Virus record (IMG/VR): IMGVR_UViG_3300021134_000257
Coordinates: 1 to 26,659 of that record
DNA: 26,659 bases
From: a virus
Reading direction: 5' to 3' (one strand)
Shown here: piece after piece, positions 11,952 to 25,906 of the stretch
How positions within the stretch are numbered: position 1 is the first letter of the stretch
Layout: each line of letters starts with the position of its first letter
Program-made: the position numbers and the translations under genes
The notes under the pieces: model-generated
Told to the model about the DNA's origin: nothing
Database searches by the model: none
Seen by the model: only the letters and a program-made list of their open reading frames with translations

Positions 11952-14890
11952 TAGTGTGTAAGAACTACACCAGCCTGTGGAAGTACCGTAGAATTAAGGT
12001 GCTTACCAAGAGCATTTGAGAAGTCGTTAAGAGAACCGTACACTGCTCCACTTACATTGACATTTACAATAGTTGTTCCGCCTTTTGAACCGCCAGTGCT
12101 TGAATATACTGGAGAAACTACTTTTTTATTTGTAAGATTTTTCATTTGGTTTGGAGTAAGAACAGTTTCTCCAGCTTGAAGAAGCGCTGGCACTTCTTGT
12201 CCAGGGTACCCTTGCACAACTCCACCTGTGTGGAAAGGCCATAGTTTTCCTACAAAATTGACAACCGTATTTAATCCAGGTATTTTATTTAAGACTGTCT
12301 TAAATGCATCCCAAACTTTTGATGCTGCATTTGTTATTCCTTTTGCAATACTTTCAATAATGTTAGTTCCAAAAGAAACCATGTCGCTTAATACTCCGCC
12401 TAGAAAGCTAAGAATTTTTGAACCAAGCGAGCCAAAGAAACTAAGAATTTTACCAAGTGCGCTAAGCACCGTCCCAACTGCTTTTTCAACAGAAGGACCG
12501 ATGGCTTCCCAAATCTTTTTCCATACTTCCCAAAGAAGTGTAATTCCTGCAACAATAAGTGCAATTGTAGCAATAAGTGGTAATAAAAGAATTCCAAGTG
12601 CAACCATTGCAATTTTCACAACTGCAACAATTAAATCAAAAATAGGCTTAAGAAGCTTCCATGCATCATCCCATATTTTTACAAAGAAATCTGCAACGTC
12701 TTTTGCAACTGTTTTAATTACTCCCCAAACAGTTGTCCAGTGTTTTACTAATTCGTACACTGCAAGTACTACGAGTGCTATAACGGCAATCACTGCAAGA
12801 ATTGGCCAAGTAACAGCCCAAATAGATGCGGCAAGTCCTACATTTGCAGTTTCTGCTGCTCCAGCAGCAATTGTTTCTCCTCCAAGCGCAGTATCTACAA
12901 TAGCAGTGTTTGCCGCCATAGTATCTTGTGCAACCTCTACTTCTCCGTTAGAAACAACAAGAGCTTCATTCATTGAAATCTGCTCAGTTATTTTTCCAAT
13001 AACTTTTTTGACTCCGTCAGAAACTGCTTTAAAGCCATCTCCTAAATTCTTAAATGCAGTTGTTGTTGCTCCTACTACTTTATTGCCAGCCCACATTATA
13101 GTTACAAAAAGACCAATACCTCCAACAACTTCCATAACAACTTTTACTAAATCTTTGTTTTTCCCAACAAAATCAGCAACTGGCTTTAAGACAGCGGCAA
13201 TGCTTCCAACAATTTTTTCCATAATTGGAAGAAACGCATTTCCAAGTTCAATGCGCACCGCAGTAATTGCATTATGCATTTTTGTCATTGAAGCTTCGTA
13301 AGTACTATTAGCTTTTCTAGCAGCTTCTTGAATTGCTTTTTGATTTTCAATTGATTTAGCTGCTTTGTCGTACCCGGCGCCTCCAGCAAGAATTGTTGGA
13401 AGAAGAGCTTTTGCTTGAGTACCGAAAAGAATTGTTGCAATACGAAGTTGGTCAGACTGGTTTTTCATTGCAGCAAGTTTTGGCCCTACTTGTTCAATAA
13501 CTCCTTTAATGCCGACAAACTTTCCACTTGAGTCAAACAGTTTTACATTTAATTGCGCTAATTCATTTTGTACAGGAGTGAGTTTTAATGCATTAAGTGT
13601 TTTTACGGACTCACCACTTTGAGTAATAAGTGTTTTAATTGACTTTAAGTATCCTGCGTATGCAGGACTGGTCTTAGAATATGATTTTATTTGCGCATCA
13701 AATGCTGCTGCACTCATACTACCGTGAGTATATGCAGTAGCCATTGCTTGTAATGAAGATGGAAGTGACTTAATAGCGTTATTGATTTCTCCTACTGTTG
13801 GCACCGTCGCTCTACCTGTTTTTAGCAATGTGTTAAGCATACTATTAAGAGCTTGCGATGACCTCTTTGGGTTCATTCCATGCTCAGTCATGTCTAGCAT
13901 CAAAGAAGTTGTATCTTTAATGCTTGGAGCAAGAATTCCTAATTGACCCTTCATACGAGTTATCTGTTGTGTGACCGCAGACATTCCTTGGCCAGTAAGA
14001 CGGCCTACGTTATAAAGTTCGCTTTCAGCAGTGGCAGCATCTTTCACATTTAATTGATACTGTTGCATAATTTTTGCAAGGTTAGTTGTGACCGTTGCAA
14101 GAGGCTGCCCAGATGCTGCTGCGCCTTCAGCAGCAACTTTCATAAAATCTACGGCGTCTTTAGCAGTTAGTGTGTGTTTTGTAAGTGTACTTAATTGACC
14201 AGCAACGGAACCGTAAGAACTTGCAATTGTTTGAGCACTAAAAATAGAACTTTCTGACATGTTCAAGAAAGATTGACCTATTTTGTCTGCCGCTTCCATT
14301 GGAAGATTAGCACTATTAGCAATTTTAATTACAGATTGTTGGTATTCTGCCGCTGCTTTTGCTGATTCATAACCAATACCAATAATTGCAGCAGTAACAA
14401 TTGCTGCTTTTGGACCAATTGAGTTTAATTTATCTACAGTTGATGTTCCTCCACCTACGCCTTCTGCTTGCGCTTGTAAGTTTAATGCATCGGTGTGGAC
14501 TTTTGTGGCAGCAGCGGCATCAAGTTCTGCTTTGTTAACCATTTGAAGAGTAGCCATGTACTCTTTAGACACAGCAATTTGCGCTTCTTTAGCTGCTATG
14601 TCGCCTTGTGATGCTTGCTCTGAAATTGTTTTGAACTCTGCAGTTACTGTATTAAGACGTTCTTGAGCAGTAATAAGTTCTTGTTGTTGTACATTTGCAA
14701 GTCCTCCAGCTATTTCAACATCATTAAGCGCCGTCGTCATAATTGTTCCGGATTGTTCCGCCGCATCTCCGGCAAGACCAAAATAATTACGAAGTTTTTG
14801 TATTTGCTCGTTTGCAAGACCGAACTGCTCTACAATGTTTTGAGTTGCTTCAATACCAAGAAGAAGTGTGAGGTCTTTAGTTAATGCCAC
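11951..14890 (-). CDS. tail tape measure protein
   Basis: A 979-residue protein starting at GTG 14890, with AAGG eight bases upstream. It sets tail length and is ejected with the DNA. Evidence: it lies right after the overlapping chaperone frames and is the longest gene. The helical N-terminal region is followed by a TP901-type core (around residue 186: SVIKIANSANLPMEAADKIG). Two hydrophobic segments follow, at about 684-715 (IWAVTWPILAVIAVIALVVL) and 747-780 (VAVVKIAMVALGILLLPLIA), which may cross the host membrane. Near the C-terminus (about 885) comes WPFHTGGVVQGYPGQEVPAL then LQAGETVL, a hallmark of tape measure proteins. The C-terminal TTIVNVNVSGAVYG segment probably binds the hub. Predicted tail length is about 147 nm. 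No lytic domain is seen. Confidence 0.93.
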   Translation of the reverse strand: MALTKDLTLLLGIEATQNIVEQFGLANEQIQKLRNYFGLAGDAAEQSGTIMTTALNDVEIAGGLANVQQQELITAQERLNTVTAEFKTISEQASQGDIAAKEAQIAVSKEYMATLQMVNKAELDAAAATKVHTDALNLQAQAEGVGGGTSTVDKLNSIGPKAAIVTAAIIGIGYESAKAAAEYQQSVIKIANSANLPMEAADKIGQSFLNMSESSIFSAQTIASSYGSVAGQLSTLTKHTLTAKDAVDFMKVAAEGAAASGQPLATVTTNLAKIMQQYQLNVKDAATAESELYNVGRLTGQGMSAVTQQITRMKGQLGILAPSIKDTTSLMLDMTEHGMNPKRSSQALNSMLNTLLKTGRATVPTVGEINNAIKSLPSSLQAMATAYTHGSMSAAAFDAQIKSYSKTSPAYAGYLKSIKTLITQSGESVKTLNALKLTPVQNELAQLNVKLFDSSGKFVGIKGVIEQVGPKLAAMKNQSDQLRIATILFGTQAKALLPTILAGGAGYDKAAKSIENQKAIQEAARKANSTYEASMTKMHNAITAVRIELGNAFLPIMEKIVGSIAAVLKPVADFVGKNKDLVKVVMEVVGGIGLFVTIMWAGNKVVGATTTAFKNLGDGFKAVSDGVKKVIGKITEQISMNEALVVSNGEVEVAQDTMAANTAIVDTALGGETIAAGAAETANVGLAASIWAVTWPILAVIAVIALVVLAVYELVKHWTTVWGVIKTVAKDVADFFVKIWDDAWKLLKPIFDLIVAVVKIAMVALGILLLPLIATIALIVAGITLLWEVWKKIWEAIGPSVEKAVGTVLSALGKILSFFGSLGSKILSFLGGVLSDMVSFGTNIIESIAKGITNAASKVWDAFKTVLNKIPGLNTVVNFVGKLWPFHTGGVVQGYPGQEVPALLQAGETVLTPNQMKNLTNKKVVSPVYSSTGGSKGGTTIVNVNVSGAVYGSLNDFSNALGKHLNSTVLPQAGVVLTH

Positions 14891-15542: not shown

Positions 15543-16517
15543 CTAGTATGCTGTTGAAACGAGATTAGTAACTGTTGCGCCAATACTAGCAGTAGCAGTT
15601 GCCAAGTCGTATGATGCTTCAAAGTCAAGAGTAGACATAACAACGTTATCCATTTTGATGTCATCTGCATACTTTGAAAGGTTAATTTGTGGCAATGTAA
15701 TAGTCATTGCTTGGCCGCTTGGGTGAGTAAATGAAACATTAAGTGAACCTTGAGTTCCATTCATTAACTTAGTGTAGTAACCCCAGTCAGTGTCATCCAA
15801 ACTATCAAATACAACTTGAATTTGACCAGTAACTTTACGAGTTAAAGGAGTTAAAAATTGCAAATCGTGTGAACCATTAAATGTATATGTAGGTTTTAGA
15901 CCGTTTTCAATATCAATGCTTACACTTGTAACTTGAATCAAATTAGTGTTTCCAAAAACAGAAAGTTCTGCTTCAGCAAATACAAAAGGAGATTCATTAA
16001 CTACAGAAATTGGGCTACTTGGCGTGTCAAGTACTGTTGCACTTTTAGAAACAAGAGATGCTGTGAATTCAACAGCATTGTCTCCAGCAGAAGCTTTAAC
16101 GTTGTATTTTCCAACTTTAGAACCAGCAAATTGCAATGACTGGTACCCACCAATGTTCTTTTCAACAGTCATTGAATTCAAAGAATTTGCAGCAGCAATA
16201 GTGTGAAGATACTTTCCACCACCTGCACTTGTAACAGTGTCACTACCAATTGCAGCAACAAATAGCTCTAAACCATTTGTTGGAAAGAAAGGAGCGCTAA
16301 CGTCTCCAGCATGCTTGTATTCTCCATACAATGCAAAAACATTTACATCTCGAATACCCATAACAACTTGAGGGAAGAATAGACCTGGGTCAGACTCAAG
16401 TGTTACATCTGTGAATGGGACAAATGATGTAGGAGTTACCGGAGTACCGAATGTGGTCTCTTTAGCAATTCCTACGGCGGATAGGGAACCGTACTTTTCT
16501 ACAATCGGTGTGGTCAA
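15543..16517 (-). CDS. major tail tube protein
   Basis: A 324-residue protein, beta-rich, starting TTG 16517 with AGAGAGG three bases upstream. The N-terminus GIAKETTFGTPVTPTSFVPF followed by TDVTLESDPG is the classic opening of siphovirus tail tube proteins ('g.a.EttfGTp..ptsfip...').  Later come YKHAGDVSAPFFPTNGLEL and a run of strands including LTRKVTGQIQVVFDSLDDTD and SLNVSFTHPSGQAMTITLPQ. These are typical of a hexameric tube subunit, where long beta hairpins line the DNA channel. Position before the chaperones agrees. No Ig-like C-terminal domain is obvious. The TTG start is supported by the binding site and by the lack of any upstream ATG before a stop. Confidence 0.85.
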   Translation of the reverse strand: MTTPIVEKYGSLSAVGIAKETTFGTPVTPTSFVPFTDVTLESDPGLFFPQVVMGIRDVNVFALYGEYKHAGDVSAPFFPTNGLELFVAAIGSDTVTSAGGGKYLHTIAAANSLNSMTVEKNIGGYQSLQFAGSKVGKYNVKASAGDNAVEFTASLVSKSATVLDTPSSPISVVNESPFVFAEAELSVFGNTNLIQVTSVSIDIENGLKPTYTFNGSHDLQFLTPLTRKVTGQIQVVFDSLDDTDWGYYTKLMNGTQGSLNVSFTHPSGQAMTITLPQINLSKYADDIKMDNVVMSTLDFEASYDLATATASIGATVTNLVSTAY

Positions 16518-19530: not shown

Positions 19531-21348
19531 CTAGGCGTTTGTACCACCGAGTGCAGCAGTTGACTGCTGTAGACCCTGGATAACACCATTGTATTGTGGC
19601 GCGTAGTTAACGAGTGCACCGTACATGTAAATACTGTAACGGAACGAAGCGTCAATTACTGGCCAGTTGATTGACAGGTAGTCCTGAACCATAACGTTTT
19701 CCCAAACGTTGGAGACGTTGCTCCAAGACATTGGGAGTGTGTATGAGTTAAGGAATGCAGTACCTTGAGTCAGCCAAGGGTGAACAACGCAGCGGAGAAT
19801 GCTACGGGTGATAGGGTTCTGAACTTCAGAAACCGCAGCACCTGTGCGTACTCCACCTACATCATCGCTTGATAGGAACAAACGGTAGTTTGTGTTTGCT
19901 CCTGAAGCAATGATTTCATCAGCAAGACGAGCGATGTCTGAACCTTCTGCAACCAATTCTGCAGGGTCGGCACGGAATCCACCAGTTTGCGATGCGTTAC
20001 CAGTTGCTGCTGAACCACCGTTCCACATTGCTTCAAGAGCAGTGAAAAGAACATTGTGTGTCAGAGTACTGTTGACTGACTTGTTGATGTATGAACCAGT
20101 AAATCCAGCAGGATAAACTCCAGCACCACCAGCAGCTCCACCAGCGTGTCCGTCAAGAATTGACAGCCAGCCTTCGTAGTCATTCGACGAGTATGTACCC
20201 GTGTCAGATGCAGGTGGGTTTGTTCCAGAACCAGGTACAGTTCCTTGTAGTGTAAATGTGGTTGCACCAACATTAGCAGCCATGAGGTAGTAGCCGGCAA
20301 GACTTCCAGGAGCAGATGCAGCATTAGCAACATAAATGTTGTACTGGTAAGCACCGTTTACTGGAGCAATCTTAACGTCAATCACCTTATTAGCAGCAGC
20401 AGCAACGTAAGCGGCTGTCCCGCTGTTAATTGTTGTTTCACCAAAGTAGTTCTTTGCAGTTACTACAACATAAATGTTGTTTGTAGTAGCGCTAAGTGCT
20501 GTCTCTGCTGAAGTAGGTGCACGCAATGTTAGTGTTGGGTTTGCTGGGGCGGCTAGAGCAGCACTTGTTCCTGAAAGGAGTGTGTACTCTTCACCAAGCA
20601 TGAATTCCTGCAGCAATACCAAGTTGGCAAGAGCAGAAATGTCCTCAAAGCCCTGACCGGCAAATTGAGCAAGCCATGATAGCGATTCGCTCAAACCGAA
20701 GAACTTGTAAGGAATGTTCATGTCGGTCGCATTTTGCGCGCCAGAGGCAGGCAAGTTTAGCGGCCAGTTCCCACCGATTGACTGACCAGATGGAATTTCC
20801 GAGATGGAAATACGCTGGTTAGGAACGCCAGTCTCAGAACCAGAAATTCCGGTTACGAGCTTAGCACGGTGTGAGGTACCCTGACCTGCGACGCGTGGGA
20901 CTTTGTTGCGGAGAGGCGAGTACACCGGGTAGATGAGTCGCGAAGGAGCAACAAGGTCAAACGGTACGAAGCCGGAGCTAAGAGGAGACGAAAGCGTAAT
21001 GTTCTTGCCAAGCTCGGCAGAAAGAACGCCGTTCAACTCATTAACGAGTTGTCCGTATCCTGGGTTGTTACCTTCAGTAAGGAAAAGACCAAACTGTGAG
21101 GTGAATGCTGGGTTGATGCTCTTACGAACTGAGTCAGGGTTTGAAACGGAATTCTTAACAGATGTGCGAAGAGCACGTTCTGCTTCGAATGAACGCTTAA
21201 AGATTTCGCCATCGTCGGTCAGTGGCTGGTTGCCACCAATCTTAGCGAATCCAGCACCCTTGACCAGGTTAGGCATACGACCCGAAATCATGTCAGATGC
21301 ACCCGAATAACGAGTTGCGTCGACAGCAGTGTCAGTTAAATTAGCCAG
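19531..21348 (-). CDS. major capsid protein (HK97-type, with Ig-like insertion)
   Basis: The protein is 605 residues if it begins at CTG 21348, or 586 from ATG 21291. The CTG follows GGAGG and three T bases and gives MANLTDTAVDATRYSGASD in front of the ATG-encoded Met; the ATG itself has only a weak site and the frame upstream of CTG is closed by TAG. The gene follows the prohead protease-scaffold, the usual order. HK97-type features include a helical N-arm (EAERALRTSVKNSVSNPDSV), PSRLIYPVYSPLRNKVPRVA (E-loop region) and a C-terminal RYSIYMYGALVNYAPQYNGV. Residues about 265-380 form an insertion with PTLTLRAPTSAET, NIYVVVTAKNYFGETTINSG and YNIYVANA, an Ig/fibronectin-like domain likely displayed on the capsid surface. 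It is followed by a strong terminator. Confidence 0.88.
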   Translation of the reverse strand: MANLTDTAVDATRYSGASDMISGRMPNLVKGAGFAKIGGNQPLTDDGEIFKRSFEAERALRTSVKNSVSNPDSVRKSINPAFTSQFGLFLTEGNNPGYGQLVNELNGVLSAELGKNITLSSPLSSGFVPFDLVAPSRLIYPVYSPLRNKVPRVAGQGTSHRAKLVTGISGSETGVPNQRISISEIPSGQSIGGNWPLNLPASGAQNATDMNIPYKFFGLSESLSWLAQFAGQGFEDISALANLVLLQEFMLGEEYTLLSGTSAALAAPANPTLTLRAPTSAETALSATTNNIYVVVTAKNYFGETTINSGTAAYVAAAANKVIDVKIAPVNGAYQYNIYVANAASAPGSLAGYYLMAANVGATTFTLQGTVPGSGTNPPASDTGTYSSNDYEGWLSILDGHAGGAAGGAGVYPAGFTGSYINKSVNSTLTHNVLFTALEAMWNGGSAATGNASQTGGFRADPAELVAEGSDIARLADEIIASGANTNYRLFLSSDDVGGVRTGAAVSEVQNPITRSILRCVVHPWLTQGTAFLNSYTLPMSWSNVSNVWENVMVQDYLSINWPVIDASFRYSIYMYGALVNYAPQYNGVIQGLQQSTAALGGTNA

Positions 21349-21356
21349 AAACCTCC
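21346..21356 (-). promoter_or_regulatory. ribosome binding site and CTG start of the capsid gene
   Basis: The minus strand reads GGAGGTTTCTGGCT; GGAGG is 21352-21356 and CTG 21346-21348, with only three bases between. No ATG, GTG or TTG exists in the capsid frame between the upstream TAG and ATG 21291. The same TTTCTGGCT follows GGAG at the start of the protease gene. Confidence 0.6.
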
Positions 21357-21379
21357 AAAGTTTCTAATAGTGGATTAAA

Positions 21380-23512
21380 CTACTCAGTCTCGAATGAGAC
21401 TTTTTCGAGCAGTGTTCGCAGTTGACTCTCTGCACGCATGCGAAGTTCTGGGTTACCAGACTTCGTCATTTCGCTTAGATAAGCTACTTGCTCTTTGAGA
21501 CCGTCCTCGGCAGTACGACGAAGCACATCGGCTTCAGTTGCTGCCTTTTCAATAGCTCGCTCTACCGCTACCGTACCCCTAACAGGGGCCTTGGCTGGGT
21601 CTGGTTCGCTACTAAACTTTTTGACTTCTGATTGCATTGCACTGAGAGTTTGGTTCATTTCAGCAAACTTCTCTTGTGTCTGTTGTTCAATCAATGTCTT
21701 TACAATTTCACTGAGCTTGTCAGTGTCAAACAATATATCGCCGTCAGTTGTTGCAATTGCCTTGACGATTGTGCTAGCTTCTTCTGGCGTGTCAGTCTCT
21801 TCTGGGAGTTCGCCGTTCTTCTTGAGAAGCTTACGAGCTTTCTTAAGAGCCTTGGCTTGCTTAAGTGCTTTACGTTCTGCCTTTGTAAGGTCAGGAGTTG
21901 CTCCAGCAGCAATGCTGCGAATTCCTCCGTCAGTACTTAGCGATTGAACTCCTGCAAACGACATTCCAGCACCTTGGTCTAGTGTGCAGATTGTTGGGTA
22001 AGCAGCAGCAATGTGGTCGTGAAGTGCGGATAGTGCATTCATAGCTACATCAGCAGTTGCAGCAGCAATTTGGTCTGCTGCAGTTGCGTTTGAAGGTGTG
22101 TGGCTTCCGCTGTTTTCAGGAGATGGACTTTCTTGGCCGTCAGTAAGAGGTCCACGAGTAAAGTCGTCTCCATCAACTGTCACATTAGACACTGGAATGC
22201 GTGGGTTTGCTCCAGTAGAAGTTGATGGTGTACGACCAGTTGTAAGGTAAGGACGCTTAAATTGTCCAGGCGTAATGCTTCCTGGAGTTGGGTGCGCGTC
22301 TGGGTACTCATCTGAGAATGCCTTACTAATAGCAACTCGCGCGGCTTCAATGTCTGCGGCTTTCATTGTAGAAAGAGTGGTTGCAGCGCCAACGGCACTT
22401 GCAAGAGCAGCAATTTGACTTGGCTCACCAGTTTCTGCAATTGAACTTAGAAGTGTACGAATAACTTCTGGTTCAAGAACTGCTTTGTAACCATTCTTTT
22501 CAATAGATGGGTGAGCAGATGCGATGACAGTTGGAGAGTAGGCGTCACAAGTTGCATCATGAGCACGACGAAGAGCGTAAGAAATGCCTTCAATCATTTT
22601 TTGAGCATCTCCTTCGTCTTCATTGTCTCCGCCTTGGTCCAAGTCATCTTCTTTATCATCATCTTCATCATCTTTTTCTTCATCATCAGAATTGCCTTTT
22701 TCAATTTCTGACTCCATCATGCCTTTACCCATGCACTTTTTACATTCAGCGTCATCAACGCTTCCTGTGCCCTTGCATGCTTCGCATTCAGTTGAACCTT
22801 TAACGACTTCTGCGTTTTCTACTTTTGTAGCGCAATCTGGGCAATCAACGTTACCTTCTTTGATTTTTCCAGTGCCTTGACATGTAGCGCAAGCAGCGTC
22901 TTCAGCTTTTACAATGTTTTCTTCATTCATGGAAGATTGTTCTTTCTCATCAGTTTGACGCTTCATAATTGTGCCGATAGGCGTCAAAGTTTTCTCTAGT
23001 TTTTTAATTTCCGTCTTAGAACGCTTAACAATGTTAAACCTTGCCGTAGGCAAAGCCGGAAAGTCTACAATTGAGACTTCCGAAAAAACACCATCCGTTA
23101 CGCGTCCTTGCTTAGCAACTTTGTCACGAATAATTCGTGGTTTAGAGATGCCAACGCTAAATGCACTGTACACGCCTTCTTTAACGAGTTTAACTGCGCC
23201 TGGCTCTACAATTCGAGCAGTCAGGTACACTCCGTCTGGGCGTGATGTGTCGATTTCAATAGCCTTACCAGCAGGTGGCATGTTTGTTGAGTGCATTTGG
23301 CGAATGTTTCCGAATGTTGCTGCCCATGCTGTAAGACCTTTGCGAGAAAAGTCTAGGTCGATGATTTGGTCATCAAGGTCGACTGTATCGCTTGTGCAAA
23401 GACCAGAGACGATTACGCTACCGTCTGACTGTTCTTCCATTTTGAGAATAGGAATACCAATTGTAACGTCTCCACCGGTTTCAACTATTACCTCATCATT
23501 AATGTGAGCCAG
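21380..23512 (-). CDS. prohead protease fused to DnaJ-type zinc domain and scaffold
   Basis: From CTG 23512 the protein has 710 residues; from ATG 23440 it has 686. The 24 extra residues (MAHINDEVIVETGGDVTIGI then PILK) supply the family's usual first strand, and GGAG precedes the CTG while nothing precedes the ATG. In ATG numbering, residues 1-140 are an S78-type (HK97-like) protease: RQMHS (His50), YSAFSVGIS (Ser95) and EVSIVDFPALPTARF. At 184-240 lie CATCQGTG, CPDC, CEACKGTG and CKKCMGKG, the four-motif layout of the DnaJ zinc domain. An acidic stretch (SDDEEKDDEDDDKEDDLDQG) follows. The rest is low-complexity and helical, ending in a coiled-coil-like ERAIEKAATEADVLRRTAED segment: a probable scaffold. 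The protease would mature the capsid and remove the scaffold. Confidence 0.85.
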   Translation of the reverse strand: MAHINDEVIVETGGDVTIGIPILKMEEQSDGSVIVSGLCTSDTVDLDDQIIDLDFSRKGLTAWAATFGNIRQMHSTNMPPAGKAIEIDTSRPDGVYLTARIVEPGAVKLVKEGVYSAFSVGISKPRIIRDKVAKQGRVTDGVFSEVSIVDFPALPTARFNIVKRSKTEIKKLEKTLTPIGTIMKRQTDEKEQSSMNEENIVKAEDAACATCQGTGKIKEGNVDCPDCATKVENAEVVKGSTECEACKGTGSVDDAECKKCMGKGMMESEIEKGNSDDEEKDDEDDDKEDDLDQGGDNEDEGDAQKMIEGISYALRRAHDATCDAYSPTVIASAHPSIEKNGYKAVLEPEVIRTLLSSIAETGEPSQIAALASAVGAATTLSTMKAADIEAARVAISKAFSDEYPDAHPTPGSITPGQFKRPYLTTGRTPSTSTGANPRIPVSNVTVDGDDFTRGPLTDGQESPSPENSGSHTPSNATAADQIAAATADVAMNALSALHDHIAAAYPTICTLDQGAGMSFAGVQSLSTDGGIRSIAAGATPDLTKAERKALKQAKALKKARKLLKKNGELPEETDTPEEASTIVKAIATTDGDILFDTDKLSEIVKTLIEQQTQEKFAEMNQTLSAMQSEVKKFSSEPDPAKAPVRGTVAVERAIEKAATEADVLRRTAEDGLKEQVAYLSEMTKSGNPELRMRAESQLRTLLEKVSFETE

Positions 23513-23520
23513 AAATCTCC
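23510..23520 (-). promoter_or_regulatory. ribosome binding site and CTG start of the protease-scaffold gene
   Basis: The minus strand reads GGAGATTTCTGGCTCAC; GGAG is 23517-23520 and CTG 23510-23512. The frame upstream is closed by TAG within seven codons and holds no ATG, GTG or TTG. The only other nearby ATGs (in TTAATGATGAGG) are out of frame and meet TAA at once. Confidence 0.55.
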
Positions 23521-24021: not shown

Positions 24022-25906
24022 TATTTTTACCTGCTGCTATAACTAGTCCATAGATAAAGTTTTGGAAGTCTCTATCTCCATACATGTAACTTCCACCTAC
24101 AAACTTTGAACCAGTAGCTTTTTGTGGACGTATGTCACCAAAGTCAATTGGACTTTTTAGCAATCCTTCCATACCAGTAGACAATATTTCGTTGCCAGTC
24201 GCGCCATACCATGTTCCAGTGTACGCAATTCTAAAATTGTCTGGGTCTCCTTTATTTCCTCCAACGTTAGCATTTATTCTTTGTTTTGGGCACCTATCTC
24301 TCCAAAATGCTTTTTGAACATCATTTACATCTCTAATTGAATGCTCAATGTAATGCATATATTCATGAAGAGTTGTAGAAACTTGGTAGTTAAGATTAGA
24401 GCCACCAAGTAACAATCTTATTTTTTGCTCACTAGAACGAAAAAATGACCTTCCAATAATTGTGTCTTTAGTAACAACTTCAAGTTGTGGAAGTGTACTA
24501 TTTCCTTTATCAATCCAGTCTTTTGGAATGTATTGCGAAATTGAATCAAATAATTGCTTTCCTAAAATTGCATTTCCTGTAAGTTTTGCTTGAATGTCTC
24601 CAGACCCTCCTAGTTGGCGAAGACTTCCGAGAACTTTCCATTGTGTTTCTGCGTATAAAGAAATTAGAGGCGCATTTTGTTTTTCAAGAACACTTGCTTC
24701 TTCTTTAAAATTAGTTATTGCACTTATTCTTTCTTTTTGATATTCTCTATACGCTCCGTAAGTCTTATCAAACTTATCAATAAGTGTTTGAGAAACTGCC
24801 TCTTTAGGCACTGTTAAAAGTTCAAATTCTTGGTTTCTTAGCGCTTGAATAACATCAAATTGTGGAACTATAGAAAATGTTTTGTACCGTTCTTCTTTGG
24901 TATTTGCGTAATCTGTCATGCTGGCAGTCACAAGAGTAATGCCAGCATTACGAAAAGCTTCTTCATTATCTGCATAAAGTTTAGCCATAGATACTCGTCC
25001 AACTTCTTCATGAGTTGTTACGCCAGTAGCATAATTAGGCAGAGTTCGAACAACAATGTCTCCTGCATCTTTTATTAGTGGAGAATTATATGAACTTCCA
25101 GTAATAATTGGAGACTCAAGCATTCTAGAGTAAGGTTGTAAGTTTTCTGCTGGTATTCCAGCTTTAATAAGAGCATCAAACAACACTTTATTTGTAATCT
25201 TTACCATGTTTTCTCTATACTCTTGCTTAACTTGTGTCTCTATCTTTTCTATTGCATTATTTAATCTTTTGCCTTGTTGAACATATTTATAGTAGCGTTC
25301 TTGAAGTTCATCAACTTTTTTCTGGTCTGGCCTTTCAAGTAAGCCTGCTTTTACACGAGCTTCTTCAAATTGTCTTTCAATTTCAGTTGTAACTTTTGCT
25401 CCAATTAAACGAGTAATTTCAAGAGCTTTATCTGCAGCATCTCTACGTTCTTGAAGAGTGCTAAACGAACCTGGAGTTCGTAATTGCTCAGCAATTTTGT
25501 CGTATTCTTTTGTAAGTTGTTTAATTTCTTTTTCAAACGCCGCATTAGTTTCTGGCTTTGACCCGACAGCAACTGGAGGAGTGACAGTTTGAGTGGCAGA
25601 AGCACGAGTTTCAGACGCGTTTACTAATGGGTAGTGCTTGTTGCCGCTAATGTTGAATTTGACTCGAGTGCCATCGTCTTTTACTCCAACAACATTATGA
25701 TATGAAGAACCTGGCTTATCTTCAGGTTTAATTGAAATAACAGTTACATCTCCGTGGCGACCCCATGTAATTTTGTCGCCAGCTTGTACTTCACCACCAA
25801 GTTTCATTCCAGCAATTGGAGCAGAACTCTCTTCAGCAAATCGTCCGTGATAGTCTCGCTCTTGGTCTTCTTCAAACTTGAATAATAGTAAGTACTTTTG
25901 GTTCAA
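24014..25906 (-). CDS. MuF-associated minor head protein with HExxH metallopeptidase domain
   Basis: A 630-residue protein starting TTG 25906, with AGTAGG three T bases upstream. Residues 17-23 read RDYHGRF, the short motif found at domain joints of many phage head and MuF proteins ('RD.HGRFa'). Residues 115-230 are charged and helical (coiled-coil-like). At 514-522 is HEYMHYIEH, an HExxHxxxH zinc-peptidase motif, followed by RIAYTGTWYGATGNEILSTG and MEGLL. The pair 'Y.g..Y....nEilS.G.E.l' after HExxH is typical of metallopeptidase-like domains attached to phage MuF proteins. It could act as a protease injected with the DNA or during head maturation. It is upstream of the protease and capsid genes, the standard place for minor head proteins. 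Catalysis is inferred. Confidence 0.7.
   Translation of the reverse strand: MNQKYLLLFKFEEDQERDYHGRFAEESSAPIAGMKLGGEVQAGDKITWGRHGDVTVISIKPEDKPGSSYHNVVGVKDDGTRVKFNISGNKHYPLVNASETRASATQTVTPPVAVGSKPETNAAFEKEIKQLTKEYDKIAEQLRTPGSFSTLQERRDAADKALEITRLIGAKVTTEIERQFEEARVKAGLLERPDQKKVDELQERYYKYVQQGKRLNNAIEKIETQVKQEYRENMVKITNKVLFDALIKAGIPAENLQPYSRMLESPIITGSSYNSPLIKDAGDIVVRTLPNYATGVTTHEEVGRVSMAKLYADNEEAFRNAGITLVTASMTDYANTKEERYKTFSIVPQFDVIQALRNQEFELLTVPKEAVSQTLIDKFDKTYGAYREYQKERISAITNFKEEASVLEKQNAPLISLYAETQWKVLGSLRQLGGSGDIQAKLTGNAILGKQLFDSISQYIPKDWIDKGNSTLPQLEVVTKDTIIGRSFFRSSEQKIRLLLGGSNLNYQVSTTLHEYMHYIEHSIRDVNDVQKAFWRDRCPKQRINANVGGNKGDPDNFRIAYTGTWYGATGNEILSTGMEGLLKSPIDFGDIRPQKATGSKFVGGSYMYGDRDFQNFIYGLVIAAGKNNG

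Follow-up and report, generated by a model that had tools for sequence, protein, structure and literature searches.

Introduction

The bacterial genes infC (encoding IF3) and pcnB start with AUU, and crAss-like and related phages recode a stop codon in their late genes. It is also said, with reference to Esposito et al. 2003 (cited in PMC9841429), that a U before a weak start can extend codon-anticodon pairing with the initiator tRNA. Conserved non-AUG starts with context effects occur in chloroplast genes, where they have been proposed as an extra regulatory layer (PMC9845219). As for phages, ORF10 of phage phiB124-14 has been annotated with a CTG start (PMC3338817), an annotation guide lists CTG, ATT and ATC as starts (PMC8785237), and a further study considered such starts and found none (PMC9503643). 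IF3 tolerates AUG, GUG and UUG as start codons and discriminates against all others (PMC4611024). Starts outside these three are usually isolated curiosities in bacteria and phages. Here we analysed a 26,659-base virus fragment from IMG/VR (IMGVR_UViG_3300021134_000257; this whole stretch is called the window), whose major capsid gene, on the minus strand, almost certainly starts at the CTG at 21346-21348.

This start resembles those of infC and pcnB in that a conserved IF3-discriminated codon stands behind a Shine-Dalgarno sequence (SD), and differs from them in that several phage virion genes carry it, the codon is CUG (or AUA/AUC), a UUU context is shared and no phage IF3 gene was found. 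The scattered phage CTG starts use the same codon but are single annotation choices, whereas the starts described here are conserved across lineages and genes and were tested by comparison. Stop-recoding phages likewise have a coding peculiarity in late genes that could delay translation; here, however, there are no in-frame stops, the start rather than the code is unusual, and no matching phage tRNA was found. The chloroplast starts are mostly GUG/UUG, are organellar and lack a shared UUU-CUG signal on a virion module. In the pairing case a U strengthens a weak start as it may here, but there it was described by mutating a chloroplast gene and here TTT-CTG is natural and repeated. Outside subscription papers, the literature yielded only single annotated CTG phage starts. 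Non-AUG initiation is known, and a conserved virion start class of CUG/AUA/AUC with a fixed context appears, as far as we found, to be new.

Results

The minus strand of the window reads TAG (21366-21364) AAA CTT TGG AGG TTT CTG (21348-21346) GCT AAT TTA, and the same frame reaches GAC ATG (21291) further on. The initial annotation had proposed that the capsid frame opens at this CTG, behind a perfect GGAGG three bases away, adding 19 residues to the protein. When the sequence was re-read, all of these details held: 24 sense codons without ATG, GTG or TTG lie between ATG 21291 and the in-frame TAG that closes the frame upstream (21364-21366), the GGAGG occupies 21352-21356, and a TTT spacer (21349-21351) separates it from the CTG. 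The spacer is common to the CTG-start genes and precedes CTG, ATC or ATA starts across the clade. From CTG to stop the gene spans 19531-21348 and encodes 605 amino acids (aa); its N-terminal extension LANLTDTAVDATRYSGASD (21292-21348) has 19 codons, the first presumably read as N-formylmethionine (fMet), and the peptide expected from the CTG start is ANLTDTAVDATR. No canonical codon can serve as a start upstream of ATG 21291, and the near-cognate CTG lies at initiation distance from the SD. The 14-mer GGAGRTTTCTGGCT was present in exactly two copies in the window, both at the starts of adjacent head genes (capsid and protease/scaffold), and its expected count was 0 in 100 shuffles of the window. 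We also considered an assembly or sequencing error as the source of the CTG, and this was excluded because other assemblies (L002, L003 and L004) carry an identical or near-identical capsid sequence with the same CTG.

We then compared the capsid start among relatives. An initial search returned 22 of them; later searches, in which alignments were used, brought about 100 distinct capsid sequences, together with a small number of contigs taken from genome assemblies. A freshwater clade (L005 to L013) has capsids 69-88% identical. According to the initial annotation, homologues beginning at the position of ATG 21291, with unconserved residues upstream, would contradict the CTG start. The opposite was found: all freshwater-clade relatives carry the extension, with a conserved RYSGASD and, 17-20 codons before the position of ATG 21291, an SD and a start codon of their own. 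In the protein alignment the conserved block RYSGASD|MI runs across that position uninterrupted. Over the last ten extension codons, pairwise differences within the freshwater clade were mainly synonymous (177 against 46 nonsynonymous) and concentrated at third positions (205 against 48 and 26); this pattern indicates that the codons before ATG 21291 evolve as coding sequence. Alignment of the extended N-termini and inspection of the homologues' start codons also favored the CTG. Each homologous start stands behind an SD: CTG in L005, L006, L008 and L009-L011, ATC in L007/L015, TTG in L012 and an ordinary ATG in L013 (MAHTDASDAGRYSGASDMIAGRMP). CTG is thereby found in six distinct freshwater sequences and ATC in one. 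Initiation at ATG 21291, with the upstream open frame an accident, would have the first ATG and a GGTG eight bases before it in its favor, but it is scarcely credible given that the upstream residues are conserved under purifying selection and that in L012 and L013 these residues follow a TTG and an ATG start, respectively. Since the extension is conserved and the homologous starts lie upstream, the start lies upstream of ATG 21291, and in the window CTG alone can serve.

Across the whole family, the capsid starts, counted by hand from printed contexts for distinct sequences with a callable start, were ATG 37, GTG 31, CTG 8, ATA 3, TTG 2 and ATC 1, so that 12 of 82 are neither ATG, GTG nor TTG. 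At least four changes on the capsid tree are required to explain these states, namely in the freshwater clade, in L067 with L101 (CTG), in L089 (ATA) and in L016/L017 (ATA). Fourfold-degenerate capsid sites are 18-68% identical between members. Cultured phages are remote relatives only, and their capsid starts are ATG. A prophage search for a cultured host returned one of 397 actinobacterial genomes, the already-known Arthrobacter terricola prophage, whose capsid starts with GTG. As a separate observation, inserts break up the capsid genes of some distant members (L164:1608-1947, L107:3910-4254, L108 and L187); two of these inserts fit the Rfam model for group I introns (RF00028), and L108 and L187 have further breaks.

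The initial annotation treated the CTG as a feature of one gene. Its capsid CTG stood, but the signal is also on the neighboring head protease/scaffold gene and on tail and other late genes of relatives. The start context of the protease/scaffold gene reads TAG ACA ATA TGG AGA TTT CTG GCT CAC, with a GGAG-A-TTT ribosome-binding stretch (23513-23520, minus strand) and the predicted start at CTG 23512 (23510-23512; GGAGATTTCTGGCT at 23520-23507) rather than at ATG 23440. From CTG to stop (21380-23512, minus strand) it encodes 710 aa, against 686 aa from ATG 23440 in the list of open reading frames, and the expected peptide is AHINDEVIVETGGDVTIGIPILK. Weak PHROG matches of this gene upstream of the capsid are to head maturation proteases. 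Among nine lineages with protein identity down to 46%, the protease start is CTG in eight and TTG in one, and never ATG or GTG. In the same nine-row alignment there are 17 invariant leucine columns, and in only one of the 17 do at least eight rows share a codon. Without selection, it would be difficult to account for the retention of one weak start codon at such divergence and the absence of any ATG or GTG. Across the wider family, most protease genes start with GTG. The protease site of L007/L015 reads GGAGATATTCTG, the only departure from TTT among the sites found by homology. Residues about 208-264 of the protein include a group of cysteines similar to that of the DnaJ CXXCXGXG zinc domain (PF00684, below cut-off), which is kept in the clade and is also visible in L107/L108.

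At five protease sites an out-of-frame ATG stands at -10, ten bases before the CTG (ATATGG or ACATGG). Such ATGs, together with an L005 upstream stop in frame with the capsid gene, might suggest that ribosomes enter the frame by reading through a stop or by shifting frame, coming either from the upstream gene or from that ATG. This was rejected as hardly tenable: the -10 ATG is absent from L012, L013 and L015 and from every capsid site, the frame relation to the upstream gene varies among relatives, and an SD at initiation distance is present in all.

To describe the start signal, the larger relatives were scanned with a simple gene finder and the gene starts were then inspected. Near gene starts in five related contigs, CTG was the in-frame codon following SD-TTT in 15 of 42 cases, against none of 85 inside genes (Fisher p = 8e-9); CTG makes up 0.4% of internal codons there. 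In the relatives G002 and G003, 9 of the 73 genes in the late block, whose limits we set ourselves, carry SD-TTT-CTG, and all 156 other genes lack it. TTT precedes the start in only 3 of 166 ATG starts, where the spacers are A-rich and -1 is A in half. The aligned SD distance was 3 in 12 of 17 unusual starts, which had been filtered on TTT, whereas in ATG genes it ranged from 2 to 9. The predicted consensus is SD(GGAG/AGG)-N0-1-TTT-CTG-GC on a subset of virion genes in a clade of actinophages. Its putative users are the head protease/scaffold, the capsid and a tail gene, with the portal and other late genes in some genomes. Judged from these comparisons, it is very probably a conserved shared start signal under selection.

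These counts bear on whether CTG needs any role at all. A strong SD and abundant late mRNA could tolerate a weak codon that drifts among near-cognates without regulatory meaning, as the variation of the capsid start among CTG, ATC, TTG and ATG inside one clade and the usual weak GTG start of protease genes across the wider family would allow. We regard this as possible but doubtful, since the protease CTG is held in eight of nine lineages at saturated synonymous divergence, the TTT context is common to unrelated genes and absent from ATG genes, and early genes should drift too, yet none was seen to do so.

An RNA operator was considered as well, in which a phage or host protein would bind RGGAG-N-UUUCUGGC at the ribosome-binding site and repress or activate a virion regulon, the CTG being part of the site. 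Near-identical 14-base strings at two window genes and at several genes in relatives, with conservation reaching bases on both sides of the codon, would agree with this. It is nevertheless improbable, as other codons and contexts occur elsewhere (TCA-ATA/ATC in G008, GTA-CTG in G013) and fit a codon constraint better, the folding energy at the unusual starts did not differ from that at ATG starts (p = 0.22), giving no extra mRNA structure, and no Rfam family was found. We also rejected the idea that these phages start genes at codons which they rarely use in elongation. It would suit the freshwater clade, where CTG ranks as the rarest or nearly the rarest leucine codon, and G007/G008, where ATA is seldom used, yet G013 uses CTG commonly, so the idea lacks generality. 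CTG occurs at 1.4-6.8 per 1000 codons in the freshwater clade (G001-G004 and the window), and ATA at 1.3-2.1 per 1000 in G007/G008.

Other late genes of the window and its relatives were examined in the same way. The window's tail gene (15543-16517, minus strand; phrog_290, "minor tail protein"), probably the tail tube by position and fold class, starts with TTG (16515-16517) within AGGTTTTTGAC, and the same codon is CTG in five lineages (G001, G002, G003, G004 and L267). More distant tail genes start as GGAGGATTT-ATA (L278), GGAGGATTT-ATC (L281) and GGAGGTTCA-ATC (G008). A 630-aa late gene of the window also starts with TTG (25904-25906, minus strand), within AGTAGGTTTTTGAAC, and its large G002 homologue has SD-TTT-CTG. 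The portal gene starts with CTG in G003 and with TTG in three others, and a small lysis-block or tail-block gene has a CTG start in three. G003 further has ATC on a gene at the head-connector position and ATA on an NlpC/P60 gene. In G008 (L220-L222; guanine-cytosine content 65%, unrelated context), ATA, ATC and perhaps ACG starts stand behind AGGAGGT..TCA on several virion genes, for example at record positions 12915, 14837 and 27109, all on the minus strand. The portal protein of G002 (L197:14842-18621, minus strand) has 1260 aa, and its C-terminal part includes a ParB_N-like region (PF02195 below cut-off; matches to several ParB PHROGs).

The identity of the capsid was then assessed. Its PHROG match, phrog_13692, has no assigned function. 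An AlphaFold2 model built from 67 family sequences reached a mean predicted local distance difference test score (pLDDT) of 75.6 and was used in place of an earlier, poor 16-sequence model (pLDDT 46). The best Foldseek matches were phage capsids (PDB, E = 5.9e-10; BFVD, capsid of Arthrobacter phage Jasmine, E = 4.1e-12), with low template modelling (TM) scores owing to inserts; the model points to membership in the HK97 fold. Residues about 270-380 form a confident beta-rich (Ig-like) insert in the otherwise HK97-type model, and tail proteins in BFVD give short matches to this kind of domain. A remote homologue in Alicyclobacillus phage MMB025 is annotated as major head protein and directly follows a head maturation protease matching the window's upstream gene. 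The protease homologue adjoins the capsid upstream as in MMB025, and a portal homologue lies upstream in G002, in keeping with the order portal, protease, capsid of HK97-type phages. The major capsid identity given in the initial annotation is supported by both the HK97-type fold and the annotated homologue.

For the host, whiB-like genes were searched in the relatives: G002 and G003 have two each, G007 has one, and the shorter G001 and G004 have none. WhiB is a marker of actinophages (PMC10202952), and the genes in G002, G003 and G007 indicate hosts among the actinobacteria, mostly freshwater ones for the group as a whole. No suppressor tRNA or other tRNA gene was found in the window, G001, G002 or G004, and only tRNA-Asp in G003 and tRNA-Gly in G007. 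The capsid frame holds no in-frame stop, and the gene does not fall among recoded late genes.

Discussion

Our previous sections place the capsid start at a CTG in a fixed context. The position of the start, the shared motif, its long conservation, its restriction to the late block and its independent recurrence as ATA/ATC/CTG elsewhere in the capsid family were read from sequence and comparison. The best explanation overall, which we hold with good confidence, is that the CTG is the capsid start within a conserved weak-start signal of virion genes. High expression among virion proteins is a usual property of capsid proteins. In the mechanism we propose, SD pairing would position the ribosome and the initiator fMet-tRNA would read CUG with a first-position mismatch, while UU at -2/-1 may pair with A37/A38 of the initiator tRNA and partly compensate for the weak codon. 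The weak codon could then limit virion-protein synthesis, or tie it to the state of the initiation machinery, as a matter of timing or dosage. Because CUG, AUA and AUC are IF3-discriminated codons, restraint or timing of virion proteins appears the likeliest purpose, and we tentatively suggest IF3-linked timing or dosage.

A stronger form, which we consider unlikely, is that the virion genes form a translational regulon in which SD-UUU-CUG (AUA/AUC in sister lineages) would be efficient only after infection alters the initiation machinery. For instance, an unrecognised phage protein might relax IF3 or alter the initiator tRNA, and the capsid, scaffold/protease and tail tube would be switched on together through the start codon. 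Searches of the phages found neither IF3 (PF00707) nor ribosomal protein S21 (PF01165), and a tRNA search of the window and relatives found no initiator-like tRNA. Near-cognate late genes might instead stay translatable when the initiator tRNA is cut or depleted, an escape from attack on initiation. VapC-like nucleases reportedly redirect initiation to elongator codons (PMC3905216), and the late virion genes are the exposed ones; however, no PIN/VapC-type nuclease gene (PF01850) was found in the phages tested, and these phages also have many late genes with ATG starts, which would stay unprotected, so that this is very unlikely.

Several points weigh against a conserved CTG signal as the explanation. 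The same genes use TTG or ATG in some relatives (L012, L013, L131 and L005), and CTG is therefore dispensable. TTT served as the filter for the 17 unusual starts, so its fixation there is by construction, and TTT also stands at sites found by homology alone (the protease of L012 and L013; the capsid of L007; and L278 and L281). It is missing in other ATA-using lineages (TCA in G008), and extended pairing thus fails to cover ATA lineages without TTT. CTG accounts for 0.03% of selected leadered starts in mycobacteria (PMC4633059), and since it is nearly unused there, the actinobacterial host would have to differ or the context must help. No phage factor acting on initiation was found in these phages, several of whose contigs are fragments and most of whose genes lack an assigned function. 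The evidence for the starts comes from sequence and comparison.

The practical consequence foreseen in the initial annotation, that standard gene callers would miss the first capsid residues, applies to both head genes: automatic annotation shortens the proteins in the window by 19 (capsid) and 24 (protease) residues, and capsid, protease and tail proteins are shortened in this way across many public contigs. The finding breaks a rule on the start codons of abundant bacterial and phage proteins, as the weakest start-codon class appears to be kept selectively on several genes encoding proteins that are as a rule required in large numbers, in phages whose hosts' phylum includes mycobacteria, where CTG has been measured as nearly inactive. 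The purpose of near-cognate starts becomes testable with simple reporters, and the signal suggests a translational layer in the late gene control of very abundant freshwater phages.
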